A stretch of 64,000 nucleotides of DNA. Origin: Leisingera aquaemixtae (GTDB lineage Bacteria; Pseudomonadota; Alphaproteobacteria; Rhodobacterales; Rhodobacteraceae). Shown here piece after piece: positions 17,515-57,967 of the stretch (positions are counted from its first letter, which is position 1; every line of letters starts with the position of its first letter). The stretch covers positions 434,001-498,000 of the forward strand of contig NZ_JAHVJQ010000003.1 in NCBI RefSeq assembly GCF_019801145.1, given 5' to 3'. The translations under genes and the position numbers were made by a program. Under the pieces are notes generated by a model. The model was given only the letters and a program-made list of their open reading frames with translations. It was not told the DNA's origin and did not search any database.

Positions 17515-18090
17515 TCAGGGGATCACCAGGTCCACCACCCGGTGCGCTGCGGCGCGGGCGTCCTCCGGGTCCAGCGCTTCTTCCGACTGCGCCGCCTGCA
17601 GCCAGACCCCGTCCATATAGCACTGCAGCGCCTGGCGGGCGGTTTCCACCCGCTCGGCAGGCAAAAGCGCCCGAAGCTCGGCCAGAAAATGGCTGCGCAC
17701 CCGGGCCCGGTTGATTCGGTGCAGGCGGCTGAGACGCGGCGAATAGGGGGCATTGGCCCAGAACTGCATCCAGATGCTGCACTGGGGAACGGTGAACAGA
17801 TCGTCGGCAAAATTCGCATCCATCACGGCATAAAGCCGCTCGCGCGGGGTGCGCGCGGTGGCGTAGCCGTCGCTCATCGCGGCGCGCAGCTTGCCCAGAA
17901 GATGCAGCATGGTGGCTTCCATCAGCCCTTCCTTGGAGCCGAAATAATAGTTGATCGAGGCTGCCGAGGCGCCGGCCTCCCGCGCGATTTCCGCCATGGT
18001 TACAACGCCGTAGCCGCGCTTGTGCACGGCAACGATGGTGGCTTCGATCAGCTCTTCGTTGCGGATGTCCCGGATGCGTTTCCTGCTCAT
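17515..18090 (-). CDS. betI: TetR-family choline-sensing repressor BetI
   Basis: A 191-residue TetR-family repressor of choline-to-betaine genes. The N-terminal HTH is at residues 10-60 (TMAEIAREAGASAASINYYFGSKEGL), and the C-terminal ligand domain contains the BetI-typical CSIWMQFWANAPYSPRLSRLHRINRAR. Choline relieves repression in known BetI systems. The frame extends 53 codons upstream but MSRKRIRDIRNE is the family start. It diverges from betT; a palindrome in the intergenic region is its likely operator. Confidence 0.93.
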   Translation of the reverse strand: MSRKRIRDIRNEELIEATIVAVHKRGYGVVTMAEIAREAGASAASINYYFGSKEGLMEATMLHLLGKLRAAMSDGYATARTPRERLYAVMDANFADDLFTVPQCSIWMQFWANAPYSPRLSRLHRINRARVRSHFLAELRALLPAERVETARQALQCYMDGVWLQAAQSEEALDPEDARAAAHRVVDLVIP

Positions 18091-18144
18091 GAATAAGTTG
18101 TGCGGCAATTGGGCCGGCGTTTCAACTGTTGTTCGCGCGATTCC

Positions 18145-18165
18145 GAATCTTGAATGACCGTTTAA
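18145..18165. promoter_or_regulatory. Candidate BetI operator
   Basis: GAATC followed by the imperfect palindrome TTGAAT-GACC-GTTTAA, just upstream of the betT -35 and within the betI-betT divergent region. The half-sites resemble the TTGAAC-type half-sites of the E. coli BetI operator. A perfect version with the same GAATC prefix occurs at 56759-56779. Confidence 0.6.
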
Positions 18166-18249: not shown

Positions 18250-19458
18250 ATGACTTCAATCATCTCGTTCGGGATTCTGCTGGCCTTTGCGCTGGTGGCG
18301 TTCTGCGTGATCAAGTGGTGGAACGTCCGCAACGTCGGCGTGACCCCCGTTCACCTTTTCACCTTCATCGCAATCCTGTTCACCTCCGGTCTGGACGTGG
18401 GCCTGATCATGTTCCCGCTGGCCTGGGACTTCCCGCTTTATGCGGACACCGCGGCGGAACCGGCCTATGCCTTCACCAACCCGCTGGCGCTGGAGTTCGG
18501 CTTCTGGGGCTTCCTGATCTGGGGCTTCTACTTCCTGACGACCTTCTATTTCTGCGTGGTTGAGCCGCGGGTGAAGTTCTTTGAAATCCCGCTGGTGAAG
18601 TGGATCAACAACATCGTGATCATCGGCACCTGCGCCTTTACCGGCGCGCTGTTCCTGATCTACCTGCCGTATTACGCCACCTTCATGGGTGACGGCGAGA
18701 CGGTGATCCCGGCCTTCTATGTCATCACCTTCCTGGTGATCCTGTTTGCCGCCTTCTCCTCCACCGACATCAAATACGTGCGTATCCTGTCGGTCGGCTC
18801 CACCGTGCTGTTCCTGGCGCTGATCCTGGGCATGTGGGCCTATGCAGGCATGGGCCTGGGCGCCTTTGCCGACACTGCAGGCAACATCGGCGGCTATTTC
18901 GCCAACATCCACAAGTTCATCCTGCCGCTGACCGACTACCATGAGTTCTACCTGTTCTGGTGGTTCGCATGGTCGATCATGATCGGCCAGTTCACTTCCC
19001 GCTTTGTCGGCGGCCTGCGCACCTGGCAGGTTCTGGCAGCGCTGCTGATCTTCCCGTCGATCCCGCTGGGTGTGTGGTTCTCGGTCCTGTACTATTACCA
19101 CCTGAACAGCATCGAAACGACGCTGCTGATCAACGTCTCCATGGTCGCGGTGGGCATCATCTTCGTGGTCAACTCCTTTGACTCGCTGATCCGCCTCTAC
19201 ACCGACAACCTGAACCTGACGGCCAAGCGTTTCGGCACCATTCCCTACGTGCTCGGCAACGCGGTTGTGCTCTTCGGCCTGACCCTGGCCTTCCAGAGCC
19301 AGTGGCTGCAGATCCAGTGGATCGGCACCATCGTGATCGCCATCTACGTGGCCTGCCTAGCCTACATCGTGGCCTTCAAGCGCAGCGAAGTCATGAGCAT
19401 CGACGCCTCGCCCGAGGAAAACACGCTCGACTTCGAAAAGATCAAGACAGCCCACTAA
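18250..19458 (+). CDS. betT: BCCT-like choline transporter, short form
   Basis: A 402-residue inner-membrane protein with about 10-11 hydrophobic segments. It is first in the bet operon and divergent from betI. The aromatic stretch FYLFWWFAWSIMIGQFTSRF corresponds in position and character to the Trp-rich TM8 signature of betaine/choline/carnitine transporters. PVHLFTF and the YADT...AFTN region also suit that fold. BCCT proteins are normally about 500-680 residues with 12 helices, so this is a reduced, divergent member. Choline (or choline sulfate) uptake is inferred from operon position. High hydrophobicity and unbroken conserved ends argue against a broken gene. Confidence 0.7.
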   Translation: MTSIISFGILLAFALVAFCVIKWWNVRNVGVTPVHLFTFIAILFTSGLDVGLIMFPLAWDFPLYADTAAEPAYAFTNPLALEFGFWGFLIWGFYFLTTFYFCVVEPRVKFFEIPLVKWINNIVIIGTCAFTGALFLIYLPYYATFMGDGETVIPAFYVITFLVILFAAFSSTDIKYVRILSVGSTVLFLALILGMWAYAGMGLGAFADTAGNIGGYFANIHKFILPLTDYHEFYLFWWFAWSIMIGQFTSRFVGGLRTWQVLAALLIFPSIPLGVWFSVLYYYHLNSIETTLLINVSMVAVGIIFVVNSFDSLIRLYTDNLNLTAKRFGTIPYVLGNAVVLFGLTLAFQSQWLQIQWIGTIVIAIYVACLAYIVAFKRSEVMSIDASPEENTLDFEKIKTAH

Positions 19459-19582: not shown

Positions 19583-21091
19583 ATGAGTGCCCCGAATATC
19601 CTGATCCTGATGGTTGACCAGTTGAATGGGACGCTTTTCCCGGACGGCCCTGCCGAGTGGCTGCATGCTCCGAACCTGAAAAAGCTGGCGGACCGCTCGA
19701 CCCGCTTCAAGAACGCCTATACCGCGTCGCCGCTCTGCGCCCCGGGCCGCGCCTCCTTCATGTCCGGCCAACTGCCCTCGCGCACCGGCGTCTATGACAA
19801 CGCCGCCGAATTCCGCAGCGACATCCCGACATATGCCCACCACCTGCGCCGCGCGGGCTACTACACCTGCCTCTCGGGCAAGATGCACTTTGTCGGCCCC
19901 GACCAGCTGCACGGGTTCGAGGACCGGCTGACCACCGACATCTACCCGGCCGATTTCGGCTGGACCCCGGATTACCGCAAGCCGGGCGAACGCATCGACT
20001 GGTGGTACCACAACATGGGGAGTGTCACCGGGGCAGGGGTGGCAGAGACCTCTAACCAGATGGAATACGACGACGAGGTCGCCTACAACGCCACCGCCAA
20101 GCTTTATGAGCTGTCGCGGGGGCTGGACGACCGCCCCTGGTGCGTCACCGTCTCCTTCACCCATCCGCACGACCCCTATGTGGCGCGCCGCAAGTACTGG
20201 GACCTCTACGAGGACTGCGAGCACCTGCTGCCCGAAGTCCCGGCCAAGGCCTACGAGGACCACGACCCGCACGCGCAGCGGATCTTTGACGCCAACGACT
20301 GGCGCAGCTTCGACATCACCGAAGAAGACATCAAACGTTCCCGCCGCGCCTATTTCGCCAATATTTCCTATCTGGATGACAAGATCGGCGAGATCCTGAA
20401 CGTGCTGGAGACCACCCGGCAGGAGGCGATCATCCTGTTTGTCTCCGACCACGGCGACATGCTGGGCGAGCGCGGCCTTTGGTTCAAGATGAACTTCTAC
20501 GAGGGCTCGGCCCGGGTGCCGCTGATGATCTCCGCCCCGGACCTGCCTGCGGGCCGCATCGACACACCGGTTTCCACCATCGACGTGACCCCGACGCTGG
20601 GGGCGCTGGCCGGTGTCGACATGGGCGAGATCGAGCCCTGGACCGACGGCCAGAACCTGGTGCCGCTGGCCACCGGAACCGAACGCAGCGCGCCGGTGCT
20701 GATGGAATACGCGGCAGAGGCGTCTTACGCGCCGCTGGTCTCCATGCGCTACGGCAAGTGGAAGTACAACCGCTGCGCGCTGGACCCCGATCAGCTGTTC
20801 GACCTGGAGGCCGACCCGCACGAGCTCAACAACCTGGCAGAGGACCCGGCCCATGCCGGCACGCTGGAGTCTTTGCGCGCCAAGTCGGAGGCGCGCTGGG
20901 ATCTGGAGGCCTTCGATGCAGATGTGCGCGCCAGCCAGGCCCGCCGCTGGGTCGTCTATGAGGCGCTGCGCCAGGGCGGCTACTACCCCTGGGATTACCA
21001 GCCGCTGCAAAAGGCCTCCGAGCGCTACATGCGCAACCACATGAATCTCGACAACCTCGAGGAAAGCAAACGCTTTCCCCGCGGCGAATAA
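19583..21091 (+). CDS. betC: Choline-sulfatase
   Basis: A 502-residue type I sulfatase that hydrolyses choline-O-sulfate to choline and sulfate. The formylglycine site CAPGR is at residues 52-56 (C-x-P-x-R, Cys52 converted to formylglycine). The metal-binding DQ is in MVDQLNG at the N-terminus, and the second metal site is in VSDHGDMLGERGLW. The C-terminal choline-sulfatase extension (ARRWVVYEALRQGGYYPWDYQP) is present. It lies between betT and betB, as in many rhizobia and roseobacters. Confidence 0.95.
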   Translation: MSAPNILILMVDQLNGTLFPDGPAEWLHAPNLKKLADRSTRFKNAYTASPLCAPGRASFMSGQLPSRTGVYDNAAEFRSDIPTYAHHLRRAGYYTCLSGKMHFVGPDQLHGFEDRLTTDIYPADFGWTPDYRKPGERIDWWYHNMGSVTGAGVAETSNQMEYDDEVAYNATAKLYELSRGLDDRPWCVTVSFTHPHDPYVARRKYWDLYEDCEHLLPEVPAKAYEDHDPHAQRIFDANDWRSFDITEEDIKRSRRAYFANISYLDDKIGEILNVLETTRQEAIILFVSDHGDMLGERGLWFKMNFYEGSARVPLMISAPDLPAGRIDTPVSTIDVTPTLGALAGVDMGEIEPWTDGQNLVPLATGTERSAPVLMEYAAEASYAPLVSMRYGKWKYNRCALDPDQLFDLEADPHELNNLAEDPAHAGTLESLRAKSEARWDLEAFDADVRASQARRWVVYEALRQGGYYPWDYQPLQKASERYMRNHMNLDNLEESKRFPRGE

Positions 21092-21148: not shown

Positions 21149-22606
21149 ATGACACATCCCGCACAGCCCAAGGCCAGCCATTTCATCAACGGCGAATACG
21201 TCGAAGACACGTCCGGCACGCCGATTCCTGTGATCTATGCCGCGACGGGTGAGCAGATTGCCACCGTCTACGCCGCCACCCCGGCAATCGTCGAACAGGC
21301 GCTGTCCACCGCCAAGGAAGCGCAAAAGGCCTGGGCCAAAATGACCGGCACCGAGCGCGGCCGCATCCTGCGCCGCGCCGCCGATATCATGCGCGAGCGC
21401 AACCATGAACTCAGCGTTCTGGAAACCTACGACACCGGCAAGCCGCTGCAGGAAACCCTGGTGGCCGACGCCACCTCCGGCGCCGACGCGCTGGAATATT
21501 TCGGCGGCCTGGCAGGCTCCCTGACCGGCGAGCACATCCCGATGGGCGAGGACTGGGTCTACACCGTGCGCGAGGCGCTGGGCCTGTGTGTGGGCATCGG
21601 CGCCTGGAACTACCCGACCCAGATCGCCTGCTGGAAAGGCGCACCGGCGCTGGCCTGCGGCAACTCGATGGTGTTCAAACCCTCCGAGACCACCCCGCTC
21701 TGCGCCCTGAAGGTGGCCGAGATCCTGCACGAGGCGGGCGCCCCGGCCGGCATCTACAACGTCATCCAGGGCATGGGCGAGGTCGGCGGCGCGCTGGTCA
21801 CCGATCCGCGCGTCGACAAGGTCTCGCTCACCGGCTCGGTGCCGACCGGCAAGAAGGTCTATGCCGCCGCCGCGGCAGGCATGAAGCACGTCACCATGGA
21901 GCTGGGCGGCAAGTCGCCGCTGATCATCTTTGACGACGCCGATGTGGAAAACGCCGTCGGCGGCGCCATCAACGGCAACTTCTACTCCTCCGGCCAGGTC
22001 TGCTCCAATGGCACCCGCGTGTTCGTGCAGAAGGGCATCAAGGAGAAATTCCTGGCCCGCCTGGCGGAGCGTACCGGCAACGCCATCCTGGGCGACCCGA
22101 TGGATGAGGCCACCAGCTTCGGCCCGATGGTCACCGAGAACCAGATGAACATCGTGATGGGCTACATCGAAAAGGGCAAAGAGGAAGGCGCCCGCCTGGT
22201 CTGCGGCGGCAACCGCGCCGACATGCCGGGCTTCTTCGTTGAGCCGACCGTCTTTGCCGATGTGACCGACGACATGACCATCGCCCGCGAGGAGATCTTC
22301 GGCCCGGTGATGTCCGTTCTCGACTTCGACACCGAGGAAGAGGTGATCGCCCGCGCCAATGACACCGAGTTCGGTCTGTCCGCCGGCGTTTTCACCAACG
22401 ACTTCAGCCGCGCCCACCGGGTGATCGGCCAGCTCGAGGCCGGCAGCTGCTTCATCAACTCCTACAACGACGCGCCGGTCGAGGCGCCGTTCGGCGGCGT
22501 GAAGGCGTCTGGTGTTGGCCGCGAGAACTCGAAAGAGGCGATCAAGCACTTCAGCCAGGTGAAGTCGGTCTACGTCCGCATGGGCGACGTCGAAGCGGCG
22601 TTCTGA
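21149..22606 (+). CDS. betB: Betaine aldehyde dehydrogenase
   Basis: A 485-residue NAD(P)-dependent aldehyde dehydrogenase that oxidises betaine aldehyde to glycine betaine. General base Glu251 lies in MELGGKSP and catalytic Cys285 in [10 protein letters not shown]. The cofactor-binding GAWNYP and [10 protein letters not shown] are present, and the end [14 protein letters not shown]...[12 protein letters not shown] is BetB-typical. It is 57 bp behind betC and 107 bp before betA. Confidence 0.96.
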
Positions 22607-22713
22607 TCGGCGCTGCCTGAAAGCAACGGCCGGGCAGGGCGCCCCGCGCGCCCGCCCAATCTGAAGAAAACGGCAGCAGTCCAGATCTTCCGGCTGCCGG
22701 ATGGAGAATGGAA

Positions 22714-24369
22714 ATGAACGCGGATTATGTGATTGTCGGGGCCGGCTCTGCCGGCTGTGCCATGGCCTACCGGCTCAGCGAGGCCGGCAAGAAGGTCCTG
22801 GTGATCGAACACGGCGGCACCGATGCCGGGCCGTTTATCCAGATGCCGGGCGCGCTCAGCTACCCGATGAACATGCCGCTTTACGACTGGGGCTACAAAT
22901 CCCAGCCCGAGCCGCACCTGGGCGGCCGCGAACTGGTCTGCCCGCGCGGCAAGGTGATCGGCGGCTCCTCCTCGATCAACGGCATGGTCTATGTGCGCGG
23001 CCACGCGGGCGACTACAACCACTGGGCCGAGTCGGGCGCCGCCGGCTGGTCTTATGCCGACGTGCTCCCGTACTTCAAACGCATGGAAACCTGGAACGAC
23101 CGCGGCCACGGCGGCGACCCGGACTGGCGCGGCAAAGACGGCCCGCTGCACGTGACCCGCGGCCCCCGCGACAACCCGCTGCATGACGCCTTCGTCAAGG
23201 CAGGCGAGCAGGCGGGCTATCCGGTCACCTCCGACTACAACGGCGAGCAGCAGGAAGGCTTCGGCCCGATGGAGATGACGGTCTACAAGGGTCGCCGCTG
23301 GTCCGCCGCCAACGCCTATCTGAAGCCTGCGCTCAAGCGTGAAAACTGCGACCTGATCCGCGCCTTCGCCCGCAAGGTGGTGATCGAGGACGGCCGCGCC
23401 GTGGGCGTCGAGATCGAACGCGGCGGCAAGGTCGAGGTGATCCGCGCCAATGCAGAGGTGATCCTGGCGGCCTCCTCGCTGAACTCCCCCAAGATGCTGA
23501 TGCTGTCCGGCATCGGCCCGGCCAAGCACCTGGCCGAGCACGGCATCGAGGTGGTCGCCGACCGCCCCGGCGTCGGCCAGAACCTGCAGGACCACCTGGA
23601 ATTCTACTTCCAGTTCGCCTGCAAGCAGCCGATCACCCTGTTCAAATACTGGAACCTGCTGGGCAAGGGCCTGGTCGGGGCCCAGTGGATGTTCACCAAG
23701 ACCGGCCTGGGCGCCTCGAACCAGTTCGAAAGCGCCGCCTTCATCCGTTCCGACAAGGGCGTCGACTACCCGGATATCCAGTACCATTTCCTGCCGATCG
23801 CGGTCCGCTATGACGGCCAGGCGGCGGCAGAGGGGCACGGCTTCCAGGCCCACGTCGGCCCGATGCGCTCGCCTTCGCGCGGCGAGGTCACCCTGGCGTC
23901 GAAAGATCCCAAAGACGCGCCGAACATCCTGTTCAACTACATGTCGACCGAGCAGGACTGGATCGACTTCCGCAAATGCGTGCGCCTGACGCGGGAGATC
24001 TTTGCCCAGGACGCGATGAAGCCGTTCCTCAAGCATGAGATCCAGCCCGGCGACCACCTGCAGACCGACGACGAAATCGACGGCTTCCTGCGCGAGCATG
24101 TGGAAAGCGCCTATCACCCCTGCGGCACCTGCAAGATGGGCGCGGCGGAGGATCCGATGGCCGTTGTCGATCCGGAATGCCGGGTGATCGGCGTTGACGG
24201 CCTGCGCGTTGCCGACAGCTCGATCTTCCCGCGGATCACCAACGGCAACCTCAACGGCCCCTCGATCATGACCGGCGAGAAGGCCTCCGACCACATCCTG
24301 GGCCGCCGCCTGCCGTCCTCCAACGCAGAGCCGTGGTTCAACCCGAACTGGCGCGAAGCGCAACGCTGA
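22714..24369 (+). CDS. betA: Choline dehydrogenase
   Basis: A 551-residue GMC-family flavoprotein, membrane-associated in known cases, that oxidises choline to betaine aldehyde. The FAD dinucleotide motif VGAGSAGC is at the N-terminus, GMC signature 1 is [15 protein letters not shown], and the active-site His468 is in [12 protein letters not shown]. Codons for Met at 22708 and 22714 are both in frame. GGAG at 22703-22706 is 7 nt before 22714 but only 1 nt before 22708, so I use 22714. It is the last gene of the bet operon; an intrinsic terminator follows. Confidence 0.95.
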
Positions 24370-54366: not shown

Positions 54367-55344
54367 CTAGTTATGAAGGGTCCCCAGCTCCGGCGTGTCC
54401 GCGCCGGCGTCTTCATCCGGCCAGTTGGTGCGCCAGATCTCCGCGGACCAGTGGCCGCAATGCACCGAAGGCCGGTCAAAGCATTCAACCGGCGGCAGCA
54501 GCGGCGCCACTACCACGTCATGGCGCGGCACTGCGAAATAGGGGAAGGAGTAGCGCTCCTGCCCGGTCTTGTTCACCACCCGGTGCGGGGTGGAGACCAG
54601 CCGCCCGCCGGACCACAGCTCAAGCATGTCGCCGATATTGACGACAAAGCCGCCGGGCGGGCAGTCCGGGGTGATCCAGCCGCCGTCCCGCGTCTGCACC
54701 TCCAGGCCCCCGACCGGGTCCGGCGCGATGATGGTCAGCGCGTCGGTGTCCTTGTGCGGGTGAATGCCAAAGCCGTCCTCCTCCGGCGCCTGCGGCGGAT
54801 AGTGCAGCAGGCTCATGTTGGTGAGCGGTTTCTCGAACGGCGCCTGAATCGCGGCCGGATCCAGCCCCAGCCCCTCTGCCAGCGCACCCAAGAGCAGGTG
54901 AAAGACGCCGTCCAGTTCTGCCCAGTAGCCGAGGATCACCTCGCGCGCCTCAGGCACCTCAACAGGCCAGCGGTTGGGGCCGTAAAGCGGGCAGGCGGCG
55001 CGGATGGGGTCATCCGCCGCTACCTCATGGTGCAGCTTGTAGCCCTCGTATTTGTCCGCCGTTCCCGATCCGTCGTTCGGGGTGAAGAACCCCATCGGGA
55101 TATAGCCGCGGTAATTCTTCCGCGTAATCGCCTGATCCCACTTGGATTTCTCGGACACGGCAAAGATCGCCCGCACAACGCTGCGCACCCTCTCCACCGT
55201 TCCTGGCTGAACGCCGGTGCCGGTGATCGACAGAAAGCCGATGTCCTCAGCCGCCGCCAGAATGGCTGCGACGGATTCCTGCCGCTGCGGGTGGCCATCC
55301 TCCCGCAGCGGCGTGATGTCGATGGTGGGGATGGCTTGTGTCAA
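54367..55344 (-). CDS. 2-oxoglutarate/Fe(II) oxygenase, isopenicillin-N-synthase-like
   Basis: A 325-residue cupin-fold oxygenase. Iron ligands: His and Asp in HPHKDTDAL, and His in VSTPHRVVN about 50-60 residues later; the R-x-S (RYSFPYF) for the 2-oxoglutarate carboxylate follows. The N-terminal DIOX domain (IPTIDITPL) is present. Such bacterial enzymes hydroxylate or oxidise small molecules; substrate unknown. The first 4 bp overlap the end of the FAD oxidoreductase, so the two are one translation-coupled operon. Confidence 0.85.
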   Translation of the reverse strand: MTQAIPTIDITPLREDGHPQRQESVAAILAAAEDIGFLSITGTGVQPGTVERVRSVVRAIFAVSEKSKWDQAITRKNYRGYIPMGFFTPNDGSGTADKYEGYKLHHEVAADDPIRAACPLYGPNRWPVEVPEAREVILGYWAELDGVFHLLLGALAEGLGLDPAAIQAPFEKPLTNMSLLHYPPQAPEEDGFGIHPHKDTDALTIIAPDPVGGLEVQTRDGGWITPDCPPGGFVVNIGDMLELWSGGRLVSTPHRVVNKTGQERYSFPYFAVPRHDVVVAPLLPPVECFDRPSVHCGHWSAEIWRTNWPDEDAGADTPELGTLHN

Positions 55345-56705
55345 TGGATCCGCACCCCCTGGCGCTTCAGCTCAGCCTGCACGGCGGAGATATCTACCGC
55401 GTCGAACTCGCAGCCCGATTTCACCGACAGCGCCGCGGCGACACCCGCGCCTTGTCCCGCCACGGCGCAGCAGGCCATGTTGCGGGTGGCGGCATGGGCG
55501 ATCTTGTCACCGCCGATGGCGCGGCCGGTGACCAAGAGGCCCTGAACCCCCTTGGGCAGCATTGAGCGGTAGGGGATCTGCATGTAGCGCCCGGTGGTGG
55601 GCAGGATCAGCACCCCGTAGCCGTCGATGAACTCCGGGTAGATGCCGATGGTGTCCTCAAAGCGGCCCTGGTTGCGGGTTTCCTCCTCGGTGATGTTGTG
55701 AAAAGCGTCGATCTTGCGGGTGTCGCGGATGCCGATGGTCATGCCGAAGTTCCGCAGGCGTGCCCCCTCGCAGCCCGGGGTATAGGCGCGCAGGGCCTCA
55801 ATCGCGTGCATCGCCTGTTTGCGCCCCTCGATCTCGCCCCGGGTCATGCTGTCGGGATCGGTGCCGTCGATGCCTGCCAGATGCACCAGGTTCATATAGG
55901 TCATCTCGCCACTGTCATGCACCGCGCCCCAGGTGCCGCCGATGGTGTTCAGATGCGCCGGGATCACCCCGTCGCGAATGGCCTGGCGGAACGGCTTGGC
56001 CAGAAAGGGGGAGAACATGTCGTCCTCCTTGCCGGAGGTCTCCACCTGCCATTCGCCGGTCGACCAGTTGGCATAGGTCTGCGGATCGGCCTTCACGCCG
56101 TCCATGAACTTCTGCTTGTCGACGCCCGCGATGTGGAACATCACGCTGGCCGCCTGCATCTGCTCCACCGGGGTCTTGAGGGTGGGCGCACCCATCATGT
56201 GAGCGATATCGGCGTCGCCGGTGGCGTCGACCACCCGTTTCGCCAGAATGGCCTCGCGGCCCGCCTTGCTCTCGACAATCACCCCGGTGATCCGGCTGCC
56301 CTCGCGGATCGGCGCCACGAACACCCGGTGCAGCATCGGGTGGATGCCGGCTTCCTCGACCAGCTTGTCGGCCACCAGCTTGAAGCCCTCGCTGTCCAGC
56401 TCATAGCTGAGCGACTGGCTTTCGGGCACCGCCGCGCCCATCGCCTTGGCGCGTTCTTCGAACTCCCAGCCGATGCCGCCGGCCTCCACCGTTTCTTCGT
56501 GCCGGTACCAGGCAAAGCCCTCGACCCCCACGGTGGTTATATTGCCGCCAAAGCAGCCGAAGCGGTCCATCAGCGTGACCTCCACGCCAGCCCGTGCTGC
56601 TGCCAGCGCCGCCGCCAGCCCGCCGGGGCCGGAACCCACGACCAGCACCTCGGTTTCATGAATGACCGGAATTTCCCGTGCCGGCTCAGTAATGGTCTTG
56701 GCCAC
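55341..56705 (-). CDS. FAD-dependent oxidoreductase
   Basis: A 454-residue flavoprotein of the FAD_oxidored (PF12831-type) group. FAD-binding GSGPGGLAAALAAARAG is near residue 25, followed by DRFGCFGGNITTVGVEGF. The conserved RNFGMTIGIRDTRKI and the end GVQGLLVTGRAIGGD...CCAVAGQGAG are present. The start is GTG at 56705 (VAKTITEP), preceded by GGGAG; the open frame upstream runs through the operator and is not credible. It forms an operon with the 2OG oxygenase. A perfect BetI-like palindrome lies 59-74 bp upstream of the start. Confidence 0.82.
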   Translation of the reverse strand: MAKTITEPAREIPVIHETEVLVVGSGPGGLAAALAAARAGVEVTLMDRFGCFGGNITTVGVEGFAWYRHEETVEAGGIGWEFEERAKAMGAAVPESQSLSYELDSEGFKLVADKLVEEAGIHPMLHRVFVAPIREGSRITGVIVESKAGREAILAKRVVDATGDADIAHMMGAPTLKTPVEQMQAASVMFHIAGVDKQKFMDGVKADPQTYANWSTGEWQVETSGKEDDMFSPFLAKPFRQAIRDGVIPAHLNTIGGTWGAVHDSGEMTYMNLVHLAGIDGTDPDSMTRGEIEGRKQAMHAIEALRAYTPGCEGARLRNFGMTIGIRDTRKIDAFHNITEEETRNQGRFEDTIGIYPEFIDGYGVLILPTTGRYMQIPYRSMLPKGVQGLLVTGRAIGGDKIAHAATRNMACCAVAGQGAGVAAALSVKSGCEFDAVDISAVQAELKRQGVRIH

Positions 56706-56758: not shown

Positions 56759-56779
56759 GAATCTTGAACGGCGGTTCAA
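56759..56779. promoter_or_regulatory. Perfect palindrome, candidate BetI/TetR operator
   Basis: GAATC followed by TTGAAC-GGCG-GTTCAA. The prefix, half-sites and 4-bp spacing are the same as in the betI-betT intergenic site at 18145-18165. It lies between the divergent FAD-oxidoreductase and malate/lactate-dehydrogenase genes, closer to the former. Confidence 0.65.
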
Positions 56780-56923
56780 GTTCTTTTGCGCCACGATGGC
56801 TGAAAAGCGGCATTGAGAAGGGGAAGAGGGAGGAAACCGGAGGCCATGCCGCAAACAGGTGCGGCGGGCCGGGGGCGCGGCGTACTCTGACTTGGCAGGA
56901 CAGGCCAGAGAGGATGATTCGGC

Positions 56924-57967
56924 ATGGCACGCAGCAAGTACAGCAAGGACACGCCGCGGGCGGCGGTGCCGCAGCTTGAGGCCTTCCGCATTGCCGAGGC
57001 CATCCTGATTGCCAAGGGCTGCCCCGTGGATATCGCGTCAGAGGTGGCGGCGCATCTGGTCGATTCGGATCTGTCGGGGGTGGAATCCCACGGTGTGTGG
57101 CGGATCCTGCCTTATGCCGGGTATTACGACAGCGGCTACCTGGCCGCCGAGGTGCGCCCGGAGCTGCAGCAGAACGCCCGCGGCGCCTGGAGCGTCACCG
57201 GCAACGGCGGCATCGGCATTCCGGCGATGTCGATTGCAATCCGCGATGTGGTCGCGCGGGCGCAGGAGACCGGCATCGCGGCGATTGCTGTCACTGAGGC
57301 CGGCCATACCGGGCGGCTGGGGGCCTTTGCCGAATATGCCGCCGAACAGGGCTGCCTGGCGATCATCATCGGCGGCGGCGGGCGCGAGGCCTGGCGGCTG
57401 GTGGCGCCTTACGGCGGGCGCAAGGCGCTGATGTCCACCAACCCCTATGCCATCGGCATTCCCGGCGGCAAACGCGGGCCGGTGATCGTTGATTTCGCCA
57501 CCTCGGCGGCGGCTGCGGGCTGGGTTTACGGCGCGCGGATCGCTGGCGCCAAGCTGCCGGAAGGCGTGCTGATCGACCGCGACGGCAACCCCAGCACCGA
57601 CCCGGAGGCCTATTTCGAGGGCGGCGCCATCCTGACCGCGGGCGGCGCCAAGGGCTATGCGCTGTCGGTGGCCGCCGAGATGATCGCCGAGGCGATGCTG
57701 GGGCCGGTCACCACCGAATGCAATTGGCTGATGCTGGCGATGGACTGCAGCCTGTACCAGGAGCCCAGCCGCCTGCAGGAGATCGCCGAGGGCATTCTGG
57801 ATGAATTCCGCAACTGCCCGCCGGGCCCCGGGTTCGACCGGGTCGAAATCCCCGGCGAGCGCGAGGCGGATGCGCGGGCGGAGAATGCGGAAAAGCCGAT
57901 CCTGCTGCCGGAAGCGACCTGGGCGGAGATCCGGATGCTGGCAGAGGGGGTGGGGGTGGAGGTTTAG
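56924..57967 (+). CDS. Malate/L-lactate/ureidoglycolate dehydrogenase-family protein
   Basis: A 347-residue NAD(P)-dependent dehydrogenase of the Ldh_2 family. SDLSGVESHGVWRI at about 49-62 carries the catalytic His of this family, GHTGRLGAFAEYAA the cofactor-binding region, STNPYAIGIPG and GGAKGYALS further blocks. Family members act on malate, sulfolactate, ureidoglycolate or cyclic imino acids. It is divergent from the FAD-oxidoreductase operon and shares the palindrome-containing region. Confidence 0.82.
   Translation: MARSKYSKDTPRAAVPQLEAFRIAEAILIAKGCPVDIASEVAAHLVDSDLSGVESHGVWRILPYAGYYDSGYLAAEVRPELQQNARGAWSVTGNGGIGIPAMSIAIRDVVARAQETGIAAIAVTEAGHTGRLGAFAEYAAEQGCLAIIIGGGGREAWRLVAPYGGRKALMSTNPYAIGIPGGKRGPVIVDFATSAAAAGWVYGARIAGAKLPEGVLIDRDGNPSTDPEAYFEGGAILTAGGAKGYALSVAAEMIAEAMLGPVTTECNWLMLAMDCSLYQEPSRLQEIAEGILDEFRNCPPGPGFDRVEIPGEREADARAENAEKPILLPEATWAEIRMLAEGVGVEV

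Follow-up and report, generated by a model that had tools for sequence, protein, structure and literature searches.

Predicted BetI2-type operators precede a flavoprotein operon and a phosphodiesterase gene in Leisingera

Introduction

An inverted repeat in the genome of Leisingera aquaemixtae raises a simple question: why should the interval between betI and betT and the region upstream of a flavoprotein/2OG-Fe(II) oxygenase operon carry what appears to be the same operator? The original prediction was that BetI, or a close TetR paralogue, controls both units and possibly a divergent Ldh-family gene as well, and that the enzymes perhaps act on choline-derived or other methylated compounds. 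Here, we followed up this prediction in the window (the whole stretch of 64,000 nucleotides that was analysed, to which all plain positions below refer), in the rest of the genome and in related genomes.

Two BetI proteins have been described in Ruegeria pomeroyi (PMC12442346). BetI1 recognizes the box ATTGACG-CGTCAAT and acts on betI1C and betB. The separate BetI2 is encoded divergently from betTA, represses betTA and responds to choline, and it binds two overlapping palindromes that share AAACTTGAAC and are unlike the classical box (PMC12442346). In that 2025 paper, the only one on BetI2 that our literature searches brought up, deletion of betI2 (SPO1086) leaves betC, SPO1084 and SPO1085 unaffected and betB hardly affected, and BetI2 acts on one divergon (PMC12442346).

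Results and Discussion

A rare palindrome shared by three promoters

The 21-mer upstream of the flavoprotein operon occupies positions 56,759 to 56,779 (GAATCTTGAACGGCGGTTCAA) and agrees exactly with the earlier reading: the prefix GAATC, the half-site TTGAAC, a GGCG spacer and the half-site GTTCAA. Its partner at positions 18,145 to 18,165 (GAATCTTGAATGACCGTTTAA) is located between betI, which starts with an ATG at 18,090 on the minus strand, and betT, which starts at 18,250 on the plus strand. The claim that the bet operon and the oxygenase operon carry the same operator-like sequence therefore stands, as both 21-mers are exact and the half-sites and their 4-bp spacing are confirmed. We annotate the 16-bp palindromes TTGAAC-GGCG-GTTCAA (56,764 to 56,779) and TTGAAT-GACC-GTTTAA (18,150 to 18,165) as predicted BetI2-type operators without strand, the GAATC prefix extending the former to 56,759.

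Allowing up to two mismatches, the window contains these two sites only, and none was found in 100 shuffles. A scan of the whole genome (4,877,391 bases in 50 contigs), with the reversed pattern as control, returned two exact matches, both inside the window, one match with a single mismatch, located about 32 kb before the window (C3:402463), and nine matches with three mismatches, one of which is the palindrome at 56,759 on the opposite strand; the control gave 6 matches across the whole genome at up to three mismatches. At up to one mismatch, there are only three sites in 4.88 Mb, and each precedes a gene. A wider pattern, in which R replaces the G that opens the second half-site, likewise gave three sites in this genome at up to one mismatch and 0 in the control. 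Chance agreement had been judged improbable when the repeat was first noticed, and both the shuffles and the three sites in 4.88 Mb bear this out; the genome-wide search proposed at the time reveals a rare motif, all of whose sites at up to one mismatch stand before genes.

The third site, also a predicted BetI2-type box, corresponds to positions 1501 to 1521 of the locus opened around it (L003), in which a gene for an ENPP-type phosphodiesterase occupies 613 to 1449 on the minus strand. The palindromic core common to the sites is the 16-mer TTRAAY-N4-RTTYAA, and it is separated from the start codon by 59 bp at betI, by 58 bp at the flavoprotein gene (GTG at 56,705) and by 56 bp at the third gene. 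The 5-bp prefix belongs to a longer imperfect palindrome and reads GAATC, GAAAC, AAATC or GATTC among the genus sites detected at up to one mismatch. A promoter scan recognized no sigma-70-like promoter at either window site.

The regulator is very probably of the BetI2 type

betI (positions 17,515 to 18,090, minus strand) encodes a TetR repressor of 191 aa that matches TIGR03384 at 229.0-229.6 bits (cut-off 201.3). Divergent from it on the plus strand is betT (18,250 to 19,458), whose product, a short BCCT-type transporter of 402 aa, is assigned from its position and a weak match to PF02028 (18.9 bits, cut-off 27); a profile search gave no NCBIfam match for betT. The BetT proteins of E. coli and P. 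syringae are described as more than 100 aa longer than roseobacter BetT (PMC4744692). The cluster continues on the plus strand with genes for choline-sulfatase (betC, 19,583 to 21,091; TIGR03417, 906.1 bits, cut-off 433.45), betaine-aldehyde dehydrogenase (betB, 21,149 to 22,606; TIGR01804, 700.9 bits, cut-off 668.6) and choline dehydrogenase (betA, 22,708 to 24,369; TIGR01810, 842.1 bits, cut-off 732.1).

In R. pomeroyi DSS-3, a TetR-type BetI is divergent from betT, and a palindrome with a AAACTTGAAC arm lies between betI2 and betT (PMC12442346). The window has the same arrangement, with betI divergent from betT, as assigned from position and the weak match, and the box between them. Its copy of the arm reads GAATCTTGAAT; GAAACTTGAAT is present at betI of several genus genomes and the exact AAACTTGAAC at betI of L268. 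The two clusters differ in that betC and betB are inside the betT cluster here, unlike in R. pomeroyi DSS-3 (PMC12442346). Two overlapping boxes are described for R. pomeroyi (PMC12442346); in the window, one strong box and a weak, separate palindrome are seen. To the classical BetI/BetI1, the regulator would be similar as a choline-responsive TetR repressor of bet genes, and in R. pomeroyi BetI1 acts at a distance, on betB; however, the classical half-site is TTGACG, whereas that of the boxes reported here is TTGAAY (PMC12442346). Judged from its position and box, the regulator in the window is very probably of the BetI2 type rather than a classical BetI or BetI1.

Near betI in the window, the strong palindrome is joined by a separate weak one, which scores 9 of 12 and lies some 30 bp from that gene. 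The latter, at approximately 18,121 to 18,136 (GCGAACAACAGTTGAA when read towards betI), has a counterpart in G016, another Leisingera genome, and is possibly a relic or a form of the second R. pomeroyi betI2 box. Elsewhere in the L. aquaemixtae genome, the second-best match to the BetI profile is a BetI-like paralogue (L165, 1492-2116; G000:C5:337730) whose start is preceded, at a distance of 36 bp, by the TTGAC palindrome TTGACTCGAGTGTCAA. Given this palindrome and its different recognition helix, a two-BetI arrangement like that of R. pomeroyi may hold here.

Conservation of the three boxes within Leisingera

Upstream boxes were scored, with a maximum of 12, in 21 Leisingera genomes, the genus being assigned through the flavoprotein's best relatives in named genomes. 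The betI box is present in 21/21 (score 11-12), the flavoprotein box in all 19 genomes that hold the gene (score 10-12; the gene is absent in G005 and G016), and the phosphodiesterase box in 20 of 21 (score 10-12; missing in G016). Across the three genes, the boxes sit 51-67 bp from the start codon. As background, 201 of 6100 dinucleotide-shuffled 200-bp upstream sequences scored at least 10, with 186 at 10, 15 at 11 and none at 12.

At up to one mismatch, the wider pattern found 35 sites in 19 of the 21 genomes, compared with 2 matches for the control. Most genomes have two sites, and betI and flavoprotein sites that share a contig are about 37-43 kb apart. Every one of the 28 new genus loci that were opened (L015-L042) proved to be a betI-betT interval or a flavoprotein promoter, and among four more new sites, G020:C1:2488218 precedes the phosphodiesterase gene. 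Column conservation speaks most clearly for selection at the phosphodiesterase promoter, where the half-sites reach 97% and the flanks 75%. The contrast is moderate at the flavoprotein promoter, with 93% for the half-sites vs 83% for the farther flanks and 95% for the six adjoining bases on each side, and at betI, with 0.93 and 0.85, the support for selection is weak.

The flavoprotein box accompanies BetI2 beyond the genus

Flavoprotein loci were also collected from named genomes, the best 80 of 258 being kept. A box with a score of at least 10 is located 37-67 bp upstream in 27 of these best 80 loci, 24 of which score at least 11. Its bearers among them are Leisingera, Roseobacter SK209-2-6, Phaeobacter, Pseudophaeobacter, Zongyanglinia, Parasedimentitalea, Tritonibacter horizontis, Roseovarius MMSF_3281 (L100) and some isolates and MAGs. 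We sought BetI in the genomes of 47 of the 80 loci, leaving out, among others, L073-L078 and L080-L082 from Leisingera and near relatives. A flavoprotein box (score at least 10, 30-75 bp upstream) was found in 16 of the 17 genomes with a BetI of at least 78% identity; the exception, L088, scores 9, and Leisingera is represented among the 17 by at least L079 (L. aquimarina). Neither of the two genomes with a BetI at 58-65% identity has the box, and just one of the 28 without a BetI at E 1e-45 does (L100, score 10), which amounts to 16/17 with a close BetI vs 1/30 without. Since the sampled genomes are related, the association is strong but is not a count of independent events. The proposed comparison of related genomes thus came out in favor of the original prediction, the box being kept across Leisingera and several further genera and tracking a close BetI orthologue.

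An evenly drawn sample of 295 genomes of the family contained, at the thresholds used, the flavoprotein gene in 40, a BetI2 orthologue in 17 and the phosphodiesterase gene in 72. BetI2 occurs in 9 of the 40 genomes with the flavoprotein gene vs 8 of the other 255 (p 7e-5, kinship uncorrected). The box is rare among the 30 flavoprotein loci opened from the 40 genomes: three have one scoring at least 11 (the own genome, G312 and G220), all with BetI2. G196, with a BetI of 54% identity, has a flavoprotein box scoring 10 at 45 bp. G213 is a counterexample: it has a BetI of 81% identity and the flavoprotein gene, yet its best site, scoring 10, is 322 bp away, and none is near.

The betI-betT interval itself has a box scoring at least 10 in 16 of the 17 family orthologues, the own genome and G016 included, at 57-61 bp from the start and in one case at 74, and this box persists to about 53% identity. 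The sole orthologue without it (L188) has a changed recognition helix, ASTGSIHYYFGGK vs mostly ASAASINYYFGSK. Judged from these sequences, the betI-betT box is older than the flavoprotein box. The phosphodiesterase box was found at 0 of 28 loci outside the genus at a score of at least 10. Ruegeria keeps the flavoprotein-2OG operon without the box, and a search of 9 genomes of that genus yielded no BetI2. At zero mismatches, where diverged boxes are missed, the pattern occurs in 5 of the 295 family genomes (G000, the own genome, G016, G095, G115 and G220). The strict box of G115, GAAACTTGAACAGAGGTTTAA (L191, G115:C16:10843), stands in a genome without a BetI2 match.

What the palindrome is likely to be

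A different TetR protein, for instance another BetI-like paralogue, might bind the flavoprotein and phosphodiesterase boxes, and the genome does have nine BetI-profile matches at E 1e-10. However, the TTRAAY-N4-RTTYAA box stands at none of the eight paralogue loci (L165-L172), the recognition helices differ where aligned (for example VSKTNVLHYFG in L165 vs ASAASINYYFG), L165 has the upstream palindrome of its own described above, and outside the genus it is at betI that the same box stands; we consider binding by a paralogue improbable. That the repeat is an intrinsic transcription terminator rather than an operator is less probable still, and we rejected this reading. Plus-strand positions 56,763-56,780 do score as one terminator-like stem, followed by TTCTTTTG, where 0.3 would be expected in shuffles, yet the repeat lies between divergent genes, has just 3 G-C pairs and recurs at a constant distance from the starts of three different genes, and other copies break the stem while keeping most half-site bases (GTACAA in G002 and G013). 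Chance resemblance within related intergenic regions is the hardest to credit. Congeneric genomes share ancestry, and the flanks of the flavoprotein promoter are also fairly conserved; against this, the shuffles gave no site, the three sites in the genome all precede genes, the box persists across genera despite diverged flanks, and in the genus genomes conservation is observed at three unrelated promoters.

The sequence evidence indicates that the site at 56,759 is very probably a BetI2 operator and that BetI2 controls more than betI2-betT. In all likelihood, the BetI2 encoded by betI has three operators in Leisingera, at the betI2-betTCBA divergon, the flavoprotein(-2OG) operon and the ENPP-type phosphodiesterase gene, and the three units would be induced together by choline. 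The sites, how well they are conserved, where they stand and how closely they go with BetI2 are results of the present analysis; that BetI2 binds at the two new promoters and that choline induces them is our inference, as are the substrates. In R. pomeroyi DSS-3, control was demonstrated for the betI2-betTA divergon only, whereas in Leisingera the same box stands before two further units (PMC12442346).

Without choline, BetI2 would repress transcription by occupying the box, which would either overlap the promoter or lie upstream of it; the position of the box would fit a promoter, even though no sigma-70 match was recognized. Choline that is taken up, or freed from choline-O-sulfate or phosphodiesters, would bind BetI2, and by analogy with R. 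pomeroyi BetI2 the repressor might then be released or shifted so that the promoters open together. The outcome would be joint induction of choline uptake and oxidation, of the release of choline from a phosphodiester, and of the oxidation or demethylation of a choline-related methylated compound, with the 2OG gene co-regulated through its overlap with the flavoprotein gene. Since the box precedes both an oxidase operon and the gene for a phosphodiester-cutting enzyme, we suggest that both help in the use of choline-like compounds.

If true, three operators in one genus make BetI2 a small regulon, a modest extension of what is known of a recently described regulator. We found no report of the two further targets in the literature searched on BetI/BetI2, choline, phosphodiesterases, Phaeobacter and Leisingera. 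Membership in the regulon would offer a functional handle on two enzymes that are present in 40/295 (flavoprotein) and 72/295 (phosphodiesterase) family genomes. Marine algae and plants are said to contain choline-O-sulfate and choline ubiquitously (PMC12442346), so the predicted role of the enzymes in the use of choline or methylated onium compounds is directly testable in culturable strains.

The flavoprotein operon and its neighbors

The first gene of the operon (55,341 to 56,705, minus strand) encodes an FAD-dependent oxidoreductase of 454 aa that belongs to the PF12831 FAD_oxidored family, with 287.6 bits across the full profile. No close relative of solved structure was found for it, the matches being weak and nearly all in the N-terminal dinucleotide-binding part, and its structural model (pLDDT 73.7) resembles many FAD enzymes at Z 14-17 with no preference, a generic FAD fold that gives no substrate hint. 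The 2OG-Fe(II) oxygenase gene (54,367 to 55,344, minus strand; PF03171 plus DIOX_N) shares 4 bp with the flavoprotein gene, an overlap which suggests that the two are co-transcribed. Its product is akin to solved 2OG oxygenases (best 9ovh, E 2.4e-52). This enzyme appears to be an optional partner: it is encoded in the flank of 16 of the 19 genus flavoprotein loci and in just 4 of 17 box-bearing loci among L083-L102. The predicted control by BetI or a TetR paralogue can be sharpened to BetI2, given the arm that the operator has in common with the published BetI2 box; the pairing with the oxygenase, absent from the flank in 3/19 genus loci, holds less generally.

The Ldh_2-family dehydrogenase gene on the other side of the box (56,924 to 57,967, plus strand; PF02615) was considered as a regulon member and rejected. 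Ldh genes are in the flank of just 4 of the 19 genus flavoprotein loci, and in L075 a BCCT gene stands between Ldh and the box, with the flavoprotein gene beyond it. The Ldh gene in the window thus probably became a neighbor of the box by loss, or non-gain, of the transporter gene. With so inconstant a neighbor, control by BetI2 is doubtful; the gene probably lies outside the regulon, and this part of the original prediction is not supported. In 7 of the 19 genus genomes, the flavoprotein gene is flanked by a BCCT transporter gene of the betaine/choline type. Among the best 80 named loci, it is divergent from the flavoprotein gene in seven, six from Leisingera plus L101, directly across the box in six of them and about 2 kb off in L081. 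The BCCT protein of L073 matches PF02028 at 529.5 bits and TIGR00842 above its cut-off, and it scores 442.6 with the betaine transporter model NF047988, under the cut-off of 650. In distant genomes, many neighbors of the flavoprotein gene are housekeeping genes (ProS, gyrase B, coproporphyrinogen oxidase, URO-D) or seemingly unrelated. We also weighed, and then discarded, as a possible partner a histidine kinase encoded close to the flavoprotein gene in some related genera.

The phosphodiesterase and a methylated onium context

The product of the third-site gene has 278 aa and matches PF01663 at 62.4 bits (cut-off 23). Homologues were aligned in two sets, one of 34 and one of 26 sequences, and in the set of 26 phosphodiesterase homologues D11, S47, D171, H175, D214, H215 and H223 are invariant; these fit the nucleophile and the ligands of the two metals in the alkaline phosphatase superfamily, the allotment of residues to one metal or the other being presumed. 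The structural model (pLDDT 91.6) aligns with ENPP7, the alkaline sphingomyelinase with phosphocholine, at Z 27.8 (rmsd 2.3 over 250 residues), with Xanthomonas NPP at Z 27.5 and with the glycerophosphodiesterase ENPP6 at Z 24.1-24.2; the ENPP matches overall cover 248-250 residues at rmsd 2.3-2.6 and 16-18% identity. ENPPs that cleave nucleotides tie with ENPP7, and choline sulfatase reaches a score as high as that of ENPP6; the fold does not by itself separate a choline phosphodiesterase (ENPP6-like) from nucleotide-cleaving ENPPs. At 278 aa, the protein is also smaller than its ENPP relatives, which have some 380-800.

In 21 of 30 family loci, G016 included, which came from the 72 family genomes holding the gene, the phosphodiesterase gene is downstream of an ABC-transporter ATPase gene on the same strand. 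In L. aquaemixtae itself, some 1.8 kb with at least one other open frame separate the phosphodiesterase gene from the end of an upstream ABC operon (SBP_bac_5 protein, two permeases, ATPase), and the phosphodiesterase gene has its own box. In L115, L124 and L137, a like ABC operon, whose ATPase is 57-58% identical, runs divergently from the flavoprotein gene. In L298 (3983-13610; G063:C5), a single strand carries genes for a CoA ligase, a thiolase, the phosphodiesterase (62%), a solute-binding protein, a DmdA-like GcvT protein (NF009133, 383.6 bits, cut-off 410), the flavoprotein (80%) and a second PF12831 protein. A run of phosphodiesterase, solute-binding protein and GcvT genes similar to that of L298 is also seen in L299. 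Across the family, the phosphodiesterase gene accompanies the flavoprotein gene in 21 of 40 genomes vs 51 of the 255 others (p 3e-5, kinship uncorrected). The context of the two enzymes points to methylated onium compounds, choline first. The suggested link to methylated compounds gains indirect support from the BCCT gene that sister species carry next to the flavoprotein gene and, in another genome (G063), from the DmdA-like demethylase and phosphodiesterase beside a second copy of the flavoprotein gene.

BetI2 could also bind the sites although the enzymes are unrelated to choline chemistry, the box having been captured as a signal of algal or host contact. The flavoprotein gene occurs without BetI2 in 31 of 40 family genomes, in varied neighborhoods, and the Ruegeria operon is kept without the box, which speaks for such a capture. 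Nevertheless, a BCCT transporter gene adjoins the flavoprotein gene in sister species, the fold family of the phosphodiesterase includes choline-phosphodiester hydrolases, and in L298 the flavoprotein gene stands beside those for the DmdA-like demethylase and the phosphodiesterase, and we regard capture as rather unlikely, while giving it appreciable weight. Keeping to control by BetI2 with a role in the use of choline-like compounds, a more specific proposal can be made, which we offer as speculation with the odds clearly against it. The flavoprotein might be a new enzyme, inducible by choline, that oxidizes or demethylates a quaternary ammonium or sulfonium compound, working with a DmdA-like (folate-dependent) demethylase in some hosts and the 2OG oxygenase in others and supplied by an ABC or BCCT importer and by the ENPP-type phosphodiesterase, which would free its substrate, a catabolic module that Leisingera would have placed under BetI2.

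One further element lies in the flavoprotein promoter. Just upstream of the box, at approximately 56,780-56,815 of the window, a direct repeat containing TGNCG can be recognized, its period judged by eye to be about 19-20 bp. Many of the flavoprotein loci L073-L095, and L101, from Leisingera and some relatives, have the TGNCG repeat upstream of the gene as well, and a similar element, TGGCG-TTTTTG, occurs in Ruegeria, which is without the box. The repeat looks like the site of a second regulator.
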